From assembly GCA_902789425.1 (NCBI GenBank), contig CADANX010000006.1, positions 1 to 40,624 of the forward strand: a stretch of 40,624 nucleotides of DNA. The letters are read 5' to 3'. Both the position numbers and the translations under genes were made by a program. Below, in pieces: positions 5,648 through 10,917 of this stretch; within the stretch, counting starts at the first letter, position 1, and each line of letters starts with the position of its first letter. The DNA comes from an uncultured Erysipelotrichaceae bacterium. GTDB taxonomy: Bacteria > Bacillota_I > Bacilli_A > RF39 > UBA660. The notes under the pieces were generated by a model, which saw only the letters and a program-made list of their open reading frames with translations, had not been told where the DNA came from and ran no database searches.

Positions 5648-5673
5648 AAAAATATAGACTAATCTATATTTTT
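5648..5673 (-). terminator. Terminator after truA
   Basis: An 11-bp perfect stem (5663-5673 with 5648-5658) and 4-base loop are followed by a short T-rich run. The truA stop (5672-5674) overlaps the first two stem bases. The hairpin is nearly the same sequence as the bidirectional terminator at 4964-4991. Confidence 0.85.
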
Positions 5674-6400
5674 AATACCAAATCTTATTTAAATAAAGTC
5701 CACATCCAGGTGCTGTAATCTTTACTAATGATTTATCTTTTTTATCAAATATTTTATTTATATCTTTATAACTAATTTTACCATTGCCTACCATTATTAA
5801 AGCACCCACCATTATTCTAACCATATACTTTAAGAAACCAGATCCTACAAACGTAAAAATAAGTGTAGTTCCTTCTTTTTTTATTGATGCTTTATAAATA
5901 GTTCTAACATTATCTTCTTTTCTGTCTTGGTTTGATGAAAAAGAAGTAAAGTCATGAGTACCTTTAAAAAACTTAATTGCTTTCTTCATAGCAGTAACAT
6001 CTAAATTATTACAGTATTGAAAAATATAATTTCTCTCTATAGGATTAAATTCTCCCATATTAAGTTTATAAACATATTCTTTCTTTTTTACCATATATCT
6101 TGCATGAAAGTCATCATCTACTTTTTTTGCATCTTTAATATATATATCATCATCAAGTAAGCTATTAAGTGCACTTTTTAATTTATATTCTGTTATCTTA
6201 ACATCTATATCAACATGACCAACTTGATTATTAGCATGCACTAGAGCATCAGTTCTACCTGAAGAATGAATTTTAGTTGCTTTATTATTTATACTTTTAA
6301 GTGCTTTTTCTATTTCTCCTTGAACTGTTCTTAGTCCTTTTTGTTTTTGATAACCATTAAAATTTGTTCCATCATAAGAATATGTTAACATATAACGCAT
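5672..6400 (-). CDS. truA: tRNA pseudouridine(38-40) synthase TruA
   Basis: TruA converts U38-U40 of the tRNA anticodon stem to pseudouridine. The 242-residue length is normal. The catalytic Asp is in the motif SSGRTDALVHA (usually GRTDAGVHA, so one Gly is Leu here). Other family marks are YDGTNFNGYQ at the N-terminus, DDFHARYM and FLKYMVRIMVG. ATG at 6400, four bases after the upstream EcfA2-like stop, so co-translated with it. In Bacilli truA follows ecfA1-ecfA2-ecfT after rplQ; here ecfT is missing. Confidence 0.95.
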   Translation of the reverse strand: MRYMLTYSYDGTNFNGYQKQKGLRTVQGEIEKALKSINNKATKIHSSGRTDALVHANNQVGHVDIDVKITEYKLKSALNSLLDDDIYIKDAKKVDDDFHARYMVKKKEYVYKLNMGEFNPIERNYIFQYCNNLDVTAMKKAIKFFKGTHDFTSFSSNQDRKEDNVRTIYKASIKKEGTTLIFTFVGSGFLKYMVRIMVGALIMVGNGKISYKDINKIFDKKDKSLVKITAPGCGLYLNKIWY

Positions 6401-6404
6401 AGTA

Positions 6405-7013
6405 TCACCTTAATTCCCTATATAATTCTTTTATTAGTTCATTTACTTCATCTTTATAACTAACACTAGGATGTTTCTTTTTAACGAGTGAAACGAAATA
6501 AATGATATCTGGTATTTGATTAATATTTTTATTATTAAAAATATCATACTTATTATCATAATAATAATTTTCTTTATCTATATATATTATATCATCAACT
6601 ATTTGAAAAATATTATTAATATCAGAAGAAGATATAAATATTGTTTTTTTATTATATTTTTTCAGTTTTAGTAATATTTTAAAGAACTTTGTTTTATTCT
6701 TTTTATCAAATATATCTAATGTATCGTTTAGTACAAATATATCTTTATCTAAATAAAGTTCATATGCAAAGTTAATTTTTAATATATCACTTTCAGATAG
6801 ATTATTCTTTTTTCTATCTAAAACATCAATATTAAGTCCAACTTGTTTTAATAATTCACTTAATTCTTCTTCATCTAACAACTTTAGTTCTTTTAATGAT
6901 TTAGTAATATTAACATCAGTAATCTTATTTTCTTTTTTTAATGTATTGCATAATTCTTTTCTATCTTCACCTATTATTCCTATAATTTTATATTTCTTTA
7001 TATTGTTTAACAT
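6405..7013 (-). CDS. Degenerate EcfA2-like ABC ATPase (no nucleotide-binding motifs)
   Basis: In synteny this is ecfA2 (the second ATPase before truA). The 202 residues keep the outline of an ECF ATPase: an IIGIIGED strand-loop at the Walker A place, NLSESDILKINFA at the signature place, DIFVLNDTLDIFD at Walker B, TIFISSSD at the H-loop, and the C-terminal helices IPDIIYFVSL and DEVNELIKELY typical of EcfA. The Walker A GxxxxGKS/T is gone (GEDRKEL), LSGGQ is lost, the catalytic Glu after the Walker B Asp is absent and the H-loop His is missing. It should not bind or hydrolyse ATP conventionally. It overlaps the upstream gene by 7 nt. The frame is intact, so it is not an obvious pseudogene. 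Confidence 0.65.
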   Translation of the reverse strand: MLNNIKKYKIIGIIGEDRKELCNTLKKENKITDVNITKSLKELKLLDEEELSELLKQVGLNIDVLDRKKNNLSESDILKINFAYELYLDKDIFVLNDTLDIFDKKNKTKFFKILLKLKKYNKKTIFISSSDINNIFQIVDDIIYIDKENYYYDNKYDIFNNKNINQIPDIIYFVSLVKKKHPSVSYKDEVNELIKELYRELR

Positions 7014-7726
7014 AATTTCTCCGCAAGTTTTTCTAAATTAAATTCGTCTTCATCTATTAAATCATATAATCTTAATTTTTCACTAAGTTCATAAGAAAAA
7101 GGTAATGATATATTAGATTTTTCAAAATTACTTGTTAATTTACCATTATTAATTATATATAATTCGTCACTATAAATTGAATCATATAAATTATTAGTTG
7201 TTAGAACTACACCTATTTTATTTTTTGAACAATATTTTTTAATTATTTTTAAAACAAAATATTTTTTTTGAATAGAAAAACATGAAAAAATATTATCCAT
7301 TAATAATATCTTAGGATCTTTTAAATAACCAATTATTATTTTTAAAATTATCTTTTCGTCATCTGGTAATGAATTTGGAGATTTATTAATACTCTTTTTC
7401 ATTTTAAAAGTTTGCAGTGCTTTTTTTATTTTATACTCATCTGAAGTATAAAGCATAAGTTCATCATATACAGTTTTAGAAAAGAATAAACACTCTTTAT
7501 CTACATAATAAACTATATCATTTAATAATCTTTTTGTAGGTTTAGTATCATTTAAAGTAAGATTATTACTTTTTATTTCACCATTAAGAATCTTAAGTAA
7601 TGTTGTCTTACCAGAATTGTTTTCACCTAGCACTGATATGAATGATGAACCATCAATTTTTAAAGATAATTTTTTGAAGATGGGGCTAGTATATCCAAAT
7701 TCTAAATCTAATAATTCAAGTTTCAT
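7007..7726 (-). CDS. EcfA1-like ABC ATPase with a degraded active site
   Basis: Positional equivalent of ecfA1. From ATG 7726 (240 residues) Walker A is intact (GENNSGKT, residues 34-41). The Q-loop Gln is lost (IVYYVDKECLFF), the signature LSGGQ is LPDDE (120-124), the Walker B Asp is kept but the catalytic Glu is Asn (LLMDN, Asn145), and the H-loop His is replaced (VVLTTNN, about 173-179). It may bind ATP but should hydrolyse it poorly. The Shine-Dalgarno is weak (GGTGGTGGT); a TTG-started extension to 7777 is less likely. It is co-transcribed with the EcfA2-like gene and truA. In normal family members EcfA1/A2 energise EcfT and vitamin-binding S components; no EcfT is present here. Confidence 0.75.
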   Translation of the reverse strand: MKLELLDLEFGYTSPIFKKLSLKIDGSSFISVLGENNSGKTTLLKILNGEIKSNNLTLNDTKPTKRLLNDIVYYVDKECLFFSKTVYDELMLYTSDEYKIKKALQTFKMKKSINKSPNSLPDDEKIILKIIIGYLKDPKILLMDNIFSCFSIQKKYFVLKIIKKYCSKNKIGVVLTTNNLYDSIYSDELYIINNGKLTSNFEKSNISLPFSYELSEKLRLYDLIDEDEFNLEKLAEKLC

Positions 7727-7769: not shown

Positions 7770-7796
7770 AAAAACAAGGTGTTTAACCAAGTTTTT
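7770..7796 (-). terminator. Imperfect terminator after the LemA gene
   Basis: AAAAAC pairs with GTTTTT and GGT with ACC around a 2x2 internal loop, followed by a run of nine T on the minus strand. The LemA stop (7783-7785) is in the 5-base apical loop. A TATAAT for the next unit follows. Confidence 0.6.
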
Positions 7797-8337
7797 CTTC
7801 TATTTTTACATTTTCTTTTTCTTCATCTGTTGCTTTAAAATATTCTATCTTTTTAAATGAAAATATTTTAGCAACTATATTAGATGGAAACATATAAATT
7901 AGTTCATTATATTTAGCTACATTTGAATTATAGAATCTTCTTGAAGCTTGAAGATGTTCCTCTACATCATATATAGTTTTTTGAAGTTCTAAGAAATTTT
8001 CATTTGCCTTTAATTTTGGATAACTTTCTTTTAAGATATTTATTTTATCTATATTATAATCCATCTTTTTATCTTCATCTGCTTTTTCATTAACACTCAT
8101 ATTTTTTCTTAAATTAACTACTTCAAATAATGTTTCTTTTTCATGTTTAGCATAACCTTTTACTACTTCTATCATTTTAGTAAGTACATCATATCTTTTT
8201 GCTAAAGAAACATCTATAGATGATAATGATTCATCTATTTTTATTTTTAATTTATTATACTTATTAAATATACTTATTAATCCAAAAAGTATTATAAAAA
8301 ATACTATAATTATTATAAATAAAACTATTGATCCCAT
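7783..8337 (-). CDS. LemA family protein
   Basis: A 184-residue LemA-type protein: one N-terminal transmembrane helix (about 3-24) followed by a long four-helix bundle. Marks are SIDVSLAKRYDVLTKMIEVVKGYAKHE (shown in two pieces: SIDVSLAKRYDVL and TKMIEVVKGYAKHE), EEHLQASRRFYNSNVAKYNE and the terminal MFPSNIVA. LemA proteins are membrane-anchored with unclear roles. It starts one base after the DUF3137 stop; LemA and DUF3137/galanin proteins are often neighbours. Confidence 0.93.
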   Translation of the reverse strand: MGSIVLFIIIIVFFIILFGLISIFNKYNKLKIKIDESLSSIDVSLAKRYDVLTKMIEVVKGYAKHEKETLFEVVNLRKNMSVNEKADEDKKMDYNIDKINILKESYPKLKANENFLELQKTIYDVEEHLQASRRFYNSNVAKYNELIYMFPSNIVAKIFSFKKIEYFKATDEEKENVKIEEKLG

Positions 8338-8338
8338 A

Positions 8339-9232
8339 TTAATTTCCTTTCTTAAATAAATCGTTGTCTAAATTAAGTTCATCAACAAAATCAGTTATAA
8401 GTTTAATATCACCAGCTATTGTTTGATTTAAATTTTCTTCAGTTACTTTAACTCTAAAATTTGGTTCAAATGAATCACTATTGCTATCAAGTCCAACATG
8501 TAATTTATTATCAAAAAAACATAACATTAAATCACCTTTTAATTTATTTGATAAATCTTTTATTCTTTGAATAAGAGCTGGTGTTAATATATAGAAAGCT
8601 TCTTCTTCATTTTGAGCAAATACTTTAAACTTTTTATTAAATTCTACATCCTCAAATTCTACTCTTACATATTTATCTTTTCCAAATCTATTTGTTTTAG
8701 AACTATCAAATCCTTTTTGAATTACTTGGCAATTACGAATAAACTTTTTATTAAAATCAAATATCATCCATCTACCCATAAATAATGTTACATAATAAGT
8801 TTCTCTATTACCATCTGAATCAGTACTCTCTCTTTCTTCCTCAATATGAACATCTGCAGTAATAACATTTATTCCTTTGTATGTTCCACTTATATAATCA
8901 TTAGAATCATATCTATCGCCAAGATCAATCATATTAAGTGGTGCAAGTAAACTTTTATCTATTCCACCATCTGGTTTATAATTTAAATTATCAAATATCT
9001 TTGCTAAGGCAGAAGATACATAGTTTTCTTTATATTCTTCTTTAAATGCTCTAACATCTGGAGAAGAAATCAATGTACCAATTCCTACTGCTAACAAAAA
9101 ACAAAAAAGAAATAAGATAAAATTAAATGTTAATATAAGAAATATTAATCCTAGTACAAATCCAATAATACCACATATTAGTTTTTTTCTTACAATTTTA
9201 ATTCTTATAGCCTCTAAATCTTCTAAACTCAT
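8339..9232 (-). CDS. DUF3137 (galanin-like) membrane protein
   Basis: A 297-residue protein with two adjacent N-terminal transmembrane helices (about 17-52), then a soluble domain typical of DUF3137: YVSSALAKIFDNLNYKPDGG, ISGTYKGINVITADVHIEEE, LFMGRWMIFDFNK, and LMLCFFDNKLHVGLD near the C-terminus. The family has no established activity and is often paired with LemA, as here (one base apart). It begins a new unit with an extended -10 promoter about 17 bases upstream of ATG. Confidence 0.85.
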   Translation of the reverse strand: MSLEDLEAIRIKIVRKKLICGIIGFVLGLIFLILTFNFILFLFCFLLAVGIGTLISSPDVRAFKEEYKENYVSSALAKIFDNLNYKPDGGIDKSLLAPLNMIDLGDRYDSNDYISGTYKGINVITADVHIEEERESTDSDGNRETYYVTLFMGRWMIFDFNKKFIRNCQVIQKGFDSSKTNRFGKDKYVRVEFEDVEFNKKFKVFAQNEEEAFYILTPALIQRIKDLSNKLKGDLMLCFFDNKLHVGLDSNSDSFEPNFRVKVTEENLNQTIAGDIKLITDFVDELNLDNDLFKKGN

Positions 9233-9263: not shown

Positions 9264-9294
9264 AAGAAGATTAAATATATTAATTAATCTTCTT
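9264..9294 (-). terminator. Terminator of the small acidic protein gene
   Basis: An 11-bp perfect stem (9284-9294 with 9264-9274) and 9-base loop are followed by a T run on the minus strand. The stop codon (9284-9286) is the inner end of the 5' arm. Confidence 0.85.
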
Positions 9295-9523
9295 GTAAAG
9301 TCTTAAATATTTCTGCTAGTGAATATTTTTTATCAACATCAGTTAATAATTCTAAATAAATGTTTTCACTGTCTTCTTTTTTTATTGCTATATCAACATC
9401 ATCTTCATCATTAACATTAATTATTAAATCATATACACCAGTTGTATCTGTATATTCGTCAAATACATAATACATTTTACCATTATTTAAAGTTACGATT
9501 GCATTTCTTATTTCTTTATCCAT
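9284..9523 (-). CDS. Small acidic protein of unknown function
   Basis: A 79-residue acidic protein with no signal or membrane segment. It starts with an alternating strand pattern (IVTLNNGKMYYVFDEYTD) and has a run of Asp/Glu (NVNDEDDVDIAIKKEDSEN) that recalls DUF1292-type proteins, but I cannot assign it firmly. It follows the coiled-coil gene by 21 bases with a Shine-Dalgarno-like GGGAATA, so the two are probably co-transcribed and co-terminated. Confidence 0.7.
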   Translation of the reverse strand: MDKEIRNAIVTLNNGKMYYVFDEYTDTTGVYDLIINVNDEDDVDIAIKKEDSENIYLELLTDVDKKYSLAEIFKTLQED

Positions 9524-9544: not shown

Positions 9545-10492
9545 CTATTTTAAAGTTCTTTTAAAGAAATTTGTTAATCCTTTTTCAACAACTGATGAAT
9601 TTTCAATTGCTTCTTTTTGTTCTGTTGATATATTTTTAATATCAACTACTTTTCTATCTTCATCATAACTTTCTTTTTCTTCTACTGGAGTAGATTCTTC
9701 TTCTACTTCTATTTCTATTTTTCTTGGTTCTTCTTCTTTTGGTAAATTGAAACTTATTTCAGGTATTTCAATTTCAGTAACATGACTAACTTCATGTTTT
9801 TCTACTTCTGGTTCAATGTTTATTATTTTTTCGTTTTTAAATAAATCATCTACTTCATTAAAAGTACCTGGTTTTCTAATTTCAAGAATTTCATTTACTT
9901 CTTCTATATATTTATCTGTTATTTCACCAAGTCTTGCTCTCATATTTGATTTTTCTTCTTCAAGAGCCATTTTTAAGTTACTATTTTCGCATACTTCAAT
10001 TGCAGCATTTATTTTGTTTACTACTACTGTATATTCACTACTTACTTCTTCTAATTCAGATTTTGCTTTTGCAGTTATTTTTGTAAGACTTGCATCTTTC
10101 TTTTCTGCATCAGCTTTTTTACTTTCTTCTTCTGATAGTATTACTTTTAATTCTTTCTTTTGAGAATTTAATTCTTCTTCTACTGAAGTTTGTTCATCAT
10201 TTAAGATTTTTAATTGCTCAGCTGCTTGTAATAAATGAGTAGTTGTATAATCACCATTAACATCATGTAATTTTGAATTAATAGTTTTCTTTCTTTTAGC
10301 AATATCATTTACCTTATTCTTAAGAGTATTCTCATTATCTTTTATTTGACCTTTAATATTATTAATACTATCATTTAAACTTTTAAGTAGTAATACAGTT
10401 TCTTCTTTCTTTTCTTTAAAGTAACTTAAATATTCATCTATTTCAATAATCTTTTTAGTTTTTGTTGTTTTAGCAGCGCTAGTTCTTGCCAT
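9545..10492 (-). CDS. Long coiled-coil protein with acidic C-terminal linker
   Basis: A 315-residue cytosolic protein. Residues 1-15 are basic (MARTSAAKTTKTKK), about 20-210 are heptad-rich coiled coil broken near HDVNGDYTTTH, about 225-285 are an acidic, Pro-containing disordered stretch (EPEVEKHEVS, EEESTPVEEK), and the last 25 residues form a basic amphipathic end (EKGLTNFFKRTLK). The layout suggests a scaffold or DNA/membrane-associated structural protein; I recognise no family. It lies directly downstream of the ribosomal superoperon with its own good promoter and a possible operator palindrome in the spacer. Confidence 0.8.
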   Translation of the reverse strand: MARTSAAKTTKTKKIIEIDEYLSYFKEKKEETVLLLKSLNDSINNIKGQIKDNENTLKNKVNDIAKRKKTINSKLHDVNGDYTTTHLLQAAEQLKILNDEQTSVEEELNSQKKELKVILSEEESKKADAEKKDASLTKITAKAKSELEEVSSEYTVVVNKINAAIEVCENSNLKMALEEEKSNMRARLGEITDKYIEEVNEILEIRKPGTFNEVDDLFKNEKIINIEPEVEKHEVSHVTEIEIPEISFNLPKEEEPRKIEIEVEEESTPVEEKESYDEDRKVVDIKNISTEQKEAIENSSVVEKGLTNFFKRTLK

Positions 10493-10575: not shown

Positions 10576-10917
10576 TTATACTAATTCTAGTACAACTACT
10601 AAAGCGTCATCTCCTCTTCTTTCTTGTAATTTAATAATTCTAGTATAGCCACCATTTCTTTTTTCATAACGTTTTGCAAGGTCATTAAAGATTTTTTCAA
10701 CAACTTCTTTATCATTATGTAAAAATGCATAAGCTTTTCTTCTAGAAACTAAATCGCCTTTTTTACCATAAGTAATCATTTTTTCAACAAATTTTCTTGT
10801 TTCTTTTGCACGTGTTTCTGTTGTTTCAATTGATTCATTCATGATAACGGCTTTAGTTAAATTAGCAAGCATAGCTCTTCTATGTTTATTATCTCTACCT
10901 AATTTTCTATATGCCAT
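10576..10917 (-). CDS. rplQ: 50S ribosomal protein L17
   Basis: L17 binds 23S rRNA near the exit tunnel base. The 113 residues match the short bacterial form: [20 protein letters not shown] at the start, [21 protein letters not shown] in the middle, and the [17 protein letters not shown] end. Last gene of the superoperon, 14 bases after rpoA, as in other Firmicutes. Confidence 0.98.

Follow-up and report, generated by a model that had tools for sequence, protein, structure and literature searches.

Why would a bacterium keep two ECF ATPase genes that have lost most of their catalytic motifs and no longer stand beside a gene for EcfT? The question arises in a window of 40,624 nucleotides, the whole stretch of DNA analysed here, from an uncultured Erysipelotrichaceae bacterium. 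We take its family to belong among the RF39-like reduced Bacilli, presumably of the gut. The genes run on the minus strand toward lower coordinates in the order rplQ, a 315-aa protein, a 79-aa protein, DUF3137, LemA, EcfA1-like, EcfA2-like and truA. The features that matter for the argument are these.

10576-10917, minus strand: rplQ, named from its sequence
9545-10492, minus strand: 315-aa protein, probably coiled-coil by inspection, a candidate partner in the conserved block of the window's clade
9284-9523, minus strand: 79-aa conserved protein, a candidate partner with no Pfam family above cut-off, preceding the pair in the window's clade
7007-7726, minus strand: EcfA1-like pseudo-ATPase, 239 aa, ATG at 7726, best NCBIfam match ECF_ATPase_1
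7601-7627, minus strand: Walker A of EcfA1-like, GENNSGKTT, residues 34-42, read from the sequence
7292-7297, minus strand: Walker B Asp144 of EcfA1-like, retained, followed by Asn145 in place of the catalytic Glu (EcfA1 alignment)
7007-7013, minus strand: overlap of the EcfA1-like and EcfA2-like frames, 7 nt
6405-7013, minus strand: EcfA2-like pseudo-ATPase, 202 aa, Walker A lost, best NCBIfam match ECF_ATPase_2
6786-6800, minus strand: signature remnant LSESD of EcfA2-like, residues 72-76, Ser73 retained (EcfA2 alignment)
5672-6400, minus strand: truA, tRNA pseudouridine(38-40) synthase, TIGR00071 at 4.8e-66, above its cut-off

The start of truA lies 4 nt downstream of EcfA2-like, and ecfT is absent between them. 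The part of PMC8046335 that we consulted gives the ancestral operon order in Bacilli as ecfA1-ecfA2-ecfT-truA. Since the pair adjoins truA in this order, it occupies the place of ecfA1 and ecfA2, and ecfT is missing. The first-pass annotation had placed the pair before truA in the order that follows rplQ in Bacilli. The overlapping open frames do stand directly before truA, but four genes (the probable coiled-coil protein, the 79-aa protein, DUF3137 and LemA) separate rplQ from the pair. The LemA and DUF3137 genes (7783-9232) sit between the 79-aa protein and EcfA1-like, and inspection of the loci of eleven compared relatives found no frame of LemA or DUF3137 size at that position. It must also be noted that a 16S rRNA gene on the minus strand (1-912) is cut by the window edge.

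The identity of the two proteins is worth establishing, given how far they have diverged. ECF is the best NCBIfam family for each, though both miss the equivalog cut-offs by far: EcfA1-like matches TIGR04520 at E 6.2e-18 (65.2 bits against a curated cut-off of 315) and EcfA2-like matches TIGR04521 at E 2.9e-11 (43 bits against 330). All 16 members of the EcfA2 alignment match TIGR04521. The structure prediction suggested in the first-pass annotation gives a confident EcfA fold for each protein (AlphaFold2 pLDDT 90.6 for EcfA1-like and 88.7 for EcfA2-like), C-terminal domain included. An ECF ATPase is the first row of the Foldseek search for each model, an EcfA chain in the case of EcfA1-like. 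The EcfA2-like model aligns to an ECF ATPase in VIA-align with Z 17.6 and rmsd 2.6 over 199 of 202 residues. Its 17 best entries there are ECF or cobalt-ECF ATPases (Z 14.6-17.6, 190-202 of 202 residues), and ordinary ABC domains rank below them with 156-193 residues aligned. Two of these entries, 4huq and 4hzu, we take to be ECF. Profile matches and predicted models together confirm the pair as diverged EcfA1 and EcfA2, descended from the ecfA1 and ecfA2 of the ancestral operon.

ECF transporter ATPases have Walker A, the signature, the Walker B Glu and the H-loop His in both subunits, and neither window protein has the full set. The sequence and alignments give EcfA1-like LPDDE at the signature, ILLMDN at Walker B and TTNN at the H-loop. 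EcfA2-like has GEDRKEL at the Walker A position, FVLND at Walker B and SSSD at the H-loop. What is left of the motifs amounts to Walker A and the Walker B Asp in EcfA1-like, plus the signature Ser in EcfA2-like. EcfA1-like had been described as keeping Walker A only. LPDDE, Asn for Glu and the missing His all stand, but the alignment adds the Walker B Asp. For EcfA2-like the earlier description had all four motifs missing (Walker A, the signature, the Glu of Walker B and the His of the H-loop), and this is mostly correct except that LSESD retains the signature Ser. Compared with its relative in L152 (contig CANRCC010000018.1), where the pair is better preserved, the window EcfA2-like lacks about 57 residues, and it is among the shorter EcfA2 of the set.

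One can imagine a scenario where EcfT has simply moved elsewhere in the genome. The first-pass annotation saw no EcfT and proposed a search for it and for S components, and genome-wide searches agree with it as far as they go. The window genome, a draft estimated to be 91.5% complete, has no Pfam CbiQ match above cut-off, and a family-specific EcfT profile finds nothing in it at E <= 1. At E <= 0.001 the family profile matches none of the 12 genomes of the window's genus and, of 51 other EcfT-less genomes, only one; the genomes are drafts. The exception, G151, has a separate EcfT-like copy with internal stops. At G151:C13:23024-24931 an S-component-like gene lies beside that frame, and the truA-linked pair of G151 is without EcfT. 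A profile of the shrunken EcfT described below also finds nothing in the window's genus. Relocation is therefore rejected for the genus, where all three profiles find no EcfT. Weak EcfT-profile matches in G001, G003, G008 and G011 (E 0.008-0.6, frames of 360-366 aa) were not taken as EcfT. The family profile scores six EcfT-bearing family genomes at 1e-57 to 1e-95, and sequences from five of them went into building it. It matches 77 of 193 family genomes at E <= 0.001, and it finds the EcfT genes of G013 and G016, which the Pfam profile misses. The two S-component families searched, PF12822 and PF09515, give no match in the window genome, and these profiles find few even in EcfT-bearing relatives. 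The thiamine S component ThiT (PF09515) is above cut-off in 0 of 25 family genomes, as against 12 of 15 genomes drawn from the class's other families.

The distribution of the pair was examined across the family with a survey anchored on truA, which has a match in 177 of the 193 family genomes. The 120 regions retrieved comprise 112 chosen by hand among the truA places listed, which did not cover all 177 genomes, and eight longer ones for the genus. Loci from an earlier retrieval were added to them, and the fractions given here describe that sample. Removal of duplicates and of six controls from other families left 133 family loci. Duplicates or contig-edge copies excluded were L002-L009, L011 and L012, of which L011, from G002, is a separate genome and truncated. 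L001 was unused, and the stretches of L017 and L024 lack truA. Three loci, L032, L107 and L133, were reassigned from 'gap' to EcfT-bearing, and L085, L114 and L117 were set aside. Four of the six controls are included in the per-locus motif tallies for EcfT-bearing loci. The per-genus recount has one row per genus (n=50) and excludes all six.

Among the 133 family truA loci, 61 have the pair without EcfT, 50 have EcfT, 10 have a shrunken EcfT, 9 have no pair and 3 are unresolved. The 61 EcfT-less loci span 50 genera, and 10 of them belong to the window's genus. The pair frames overlap by 10 nt in 52 of the 61, and EcfA2 ends near or overlaps truA in most. The intact frames with short overlaps seen in the window are conserved across the 61 loci. 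Frames between EcfA1 and EcfA2 occur in L138 (a 218-aa protein), L074 (short-chain dehydrogenase-like) and L122 (293 aa, four predicted membrane segments). In L150, about 2900-3780 bases upstream of truA, rpoA is split into overlapping frames of 153 aa and 150 aa by a frameshift or an assembly error.

EcfT has been lost several times. A TruA tree with 139 rows requires no fewer than 14 changes of EcfT state, or 15 with the outgroup rows set as EcfT-bearing. Collapsing branches below 95% support leaves 8 changes, or 9 if only losses are allowed. Since this is a tree of one gene with many weak branches, it implies several losses of EcfT and does not fix their exact number.

The family holds a full series from the active module through shrunken EcfT, the pair alone and a truncated pair to no pair. 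The shrunken proteins are 187-228 aa and sit in the ecfT slot (L040, L047, L052, L054, L078, L079, L080, L104, L119 and L120). Profile comparison makes them EcfT relatives (probability 97.9), and the EcfA1 beside them is already without the catalytic Glu. The most eroded EcfT-less pairs are in L031, L128 and L137, with an EcfA1 of about 150 aa that has no Walker A. This looks like a path to loss. Nine loci have lost the pair from beside an intact truA, so the pair is probably dispensable. A search of the genomes of these nine gave many ABC ATPases and no clear EcfA2.

The motifs were not lost at random with respect to the two nucleotide sites. According to established knowledge, and to the portion of PMC7756269 consulted, composite sites are formed from motifs of both ABC subunits. 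Of the 61 EcfT-less loci, 57 preserve the Walker A Lys of EcfA1, 56 its Walker B Asp, 3 its catalytic Glu and none its H-loop His. For EcfA2, the signature Ser is found in 56 loci and the signature Gly in 5; the Glu remains in 22 and the His in 4, and Walker A is intact in 20. Counted per genus (n=50), one composite site keeps its EcfA1 Lys in 46, EcfA1 Walker B Asp in 45 and EcfA2 signature Ser in 45. The opposite site keeps its EcfA2 Walker A Lys in 20, EcfA2 Walker B Asp in 24 and EcfA1 signature Ser in 20. The TruA tree gives 6, 4 and 7 changes for the three residues of the retained site (same order) and 20, 20 and 30 for those of the opposite site.

What replaced the catalytic Glu of EcfA1 is also restricted. 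The position is D in 28 and N in 27 of the 61 loci (D or N in 55). Per genus it is D in 28, N in 17, E in 3, Y in 1, H in 1 and K in 0, which makes D or N 45 of 50. Lys would be a likely neutral outcome in AT-rich DNA (GAA to AAA). The H-loop His of EcfA1 is missing in all 50 EcfT-less genera. Among EcfT-bearing family loci (n=49), 35 still have the EcfA1 Glu and 30 the His, which places the onset of erosion before the loss of EcfT. The Q-loop region of EcfA1 lies in the groove that receives EcfT. Its mean information falls from 2.4-3.0 to 1.5-1.6 bits, so that its conservation is mostly lost, as expected if EcfT is gone. The poor retention of the A-loop and Q-loop positions of EcfA1 and the loss of the EcfA2 signature Gly weaken the case for ATP binding.

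The EcfT-less pairs are under purifying selection in relatives and are not simply decaying. Eight species pairs, near relatives picked from the 61 EcfT-less loci, have dN/dS of 0.11-0.32 for EcfA1, 0.12-0.43 for EcfA2 and 0.14-0.53 for truA. The upper 95% limits for EcfA1 and EcfA2 are all <= 0.61. The dN/dS comparison proposed in the first-pass annotation therefore turned up no neutral evolution among these relatives, and its preference for a pseudo-ATPase pair over fresh decay is borne out by them. For the relatives the same values rule out pseudogenes. A degenerate site has a conserved P-loop and a replaced catalytic Glu and is under selection, and all three are found in the relatives. Values of dN/dS up to about 1 were obtained at saturated dS, from pairs that cross the EcfT-bearing and EcfT-less groups or from distant EcfT-less pairs. 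The window pair and its nearest relatives differ by dN 0.54-0.67 at dS 0.79-1.12, a distance too great for an estimate of selection. Conservation across the whole family suggested the C-terminal domain as the sole focus of selection, and this idea was dropped since in close pairs that domain is under no stronger constraint than the remainder. The frame overlap partly dictates the conserved LWK end of EcfA1 and the start of EcfA2. In L147 (G005) TruA groups with L148/L010 (85-86% identity), and EcfA1 and EcfA2 are close to L151. These affinities suggest recombination between EcfA2-like and truA.

We lean towards a heterodimer free of transport that binds ATP without hydrolysing it and serves as a clamp or scaffold. 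Both EcfT and the uptake of vitamins by the ECF module would have been lost. EcfA1-like and EcfA2-like would still be made together and most likely still pair. One composite site would be left, built from Walker A and the Walker B Asp of EcfA1 with the signature Ser of EcfA2, the second having gone in most genera. The retained site, whose catalytic Glu is replaced by Asp or Asn and whose H-loop His is missing, should bind ATP and turn it over very slowly or not at all. ATP would then act as glue that holds the dimer closed, a stable or nucleotide-gated scaffold for another protein. According to PMC10368641, an ECF module in which Gln replaces the two catalytic Glu stays at background in ATP hydrolysis and is found closed with ATP bound. 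In the sections of PMC7756269 consulted, degenerate sites hold ATP for minutes in some ABC exporters, and ATP at Glu-to-Asp sites is proposed as a possible permanent glue. The same sections state that Asp at the Glu position does not always abolish hydrolysis. By analogy with the Glu-to-Gln module and the exporter glue sites, the pair should be an ATP-holding dimer. The P-loop may instead be retained for folding only.

Another line of reasoning is that the pair lost its job together with EcfT or the S components and has since eroded stepwise, its frames kept open mainly for the ribosome-binding sites of truA and for translational coupling. The complete series from active module to no pair is what stepwise erosion would leave behind, motif loss is already present in many EcfT-bearing loci, and EcfA2 ends near or over truA in most EcfT-less loci. 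Coupling to truA does not account for selection that extends over the whole of both genes, EcfA1 among them, a gene that has no contact with truA. It also leaves the kept P-loop, the choice of D or N and the kept signature Ser of EcfA2 unexplained, and none of the nine loci without a pair holds a broken remnant of it. We regard slow decay as unlikely. Plain pseudogenes or assembly artefacts are a far weaker proposition. The genomes are drafts, probably from metagenomes, and the catalytic motifs are indeed lost, but open frames in 61 loci of 50 genera, a conserved overlap and dN/dS well below 1 make this explanation hardly credible.

The pair could also still power transport through a membrane subunit that is different or has gone unrecognised and whose gene lies elsewhere. 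In this family EcfT is strongly divergent, enough for the Pfam profile to miss EcfT genes in two genomes, and in view of the ten loci with a shrunken EcfT a wholly rebuilt subunit could escape detection. Against this, searches of the window's genus with the EcfT and shrunken-EcfT profiles find none, and EcfA1 has mostly lost conservation in the region of the Q-loop. Power strokes are unlikely with the catalytic Glu and His lost. Continued transport therefore seems quite improbable to us. We argue that an ATP-holding clamp or scaffold remains the somewhat probable reading.

A clamp would need something to hold. A probable coiled-coil protein with a conserved C-terminal tail and a protein of about 84 aa lie directly before EcfA1-like in L144-L153, L155 and L046. 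In the genus and among its closest relatives these genes stand before the pair, also at loci that rplQ has left, and among the loci surveyed the small protein has matches at E < 1e-20 only in the window's clade. By position, the two proteins are the best candidates for partners. A bolder proposal can be offered tentatively, and we would not bet on it: across the family the pair may have been converted repeatedly to a soluble, ATP-locked heterodimer with a new cellular job, with EcfT lost at least about 8 times and the same single non-hydrolysing site kept time after time. The conserved five-gene unit of the window's clade, with the coiled-coil and ~84-aa proteins beside truA, would then suggest an ABC-clamp complex of an undescribed kind.

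The nearest known system is the group II ECF pair EcfA1/EcfA2 (the Lactobacillus delbrueckii module, PDB 8BMR and 8BMS), which shares common descent, predicted fold, gene order, overlapping frames and the C-terminal domain. The window pair differs in having no EcfT found in the genome, one site eroded and the catalytic Glu and His replaced in the other. The engineered EcfA/EcfA' double Glu-to-Gln mutant (PDB 8BMS; described in the part of PMC10368641 consulted) has the catalytic Glu replaced in both subunits, and a closed ATP-bound dimer is likewise expected. That mutant is laboratory-made, binds ATP at both sites and has EcfT, whereas the change in this family is natural and recurrent and one site is lost. 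Heterodimeric ABC exporters (TAP, CFTR and TM287/288, as treated in the consulted pages of PMC7756269) also have Glu-to-Asp and an altered signature at one site, with ATP proposed as glue. However, the exporters retain a second working site and their membrane domains, and the EcfA pair has lost its second site. PhnK/PhnL on C-P lyase (PDB 7Z15, known here from fold-search rows) is an ABC dimer without a membrane domain of its own that acts on another complex. We take PhnK/PhnL not to be an EcfA derivative, and the EcfA pair has no partner complex known to us. A literature search that included exact phrases, with subscription journals mostly outside its reach, found no paper on EcfA pairs retained without EcfT.

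This family is a natural and repeated experiment on what stays useful in an ABC motor after transport is lost. Dozens of genera stand at stages from working module to pair alone to nothing, and the order of loss can be read directly from them. A practical caution is that an EcfA match in these gut bacteria does not imply vitamin uptake by an ECF transporter. If the ATP-holding dimer is true, a degenerate glue site can survive on its own, whereas the cases known until now, in exporters, come with a working site.
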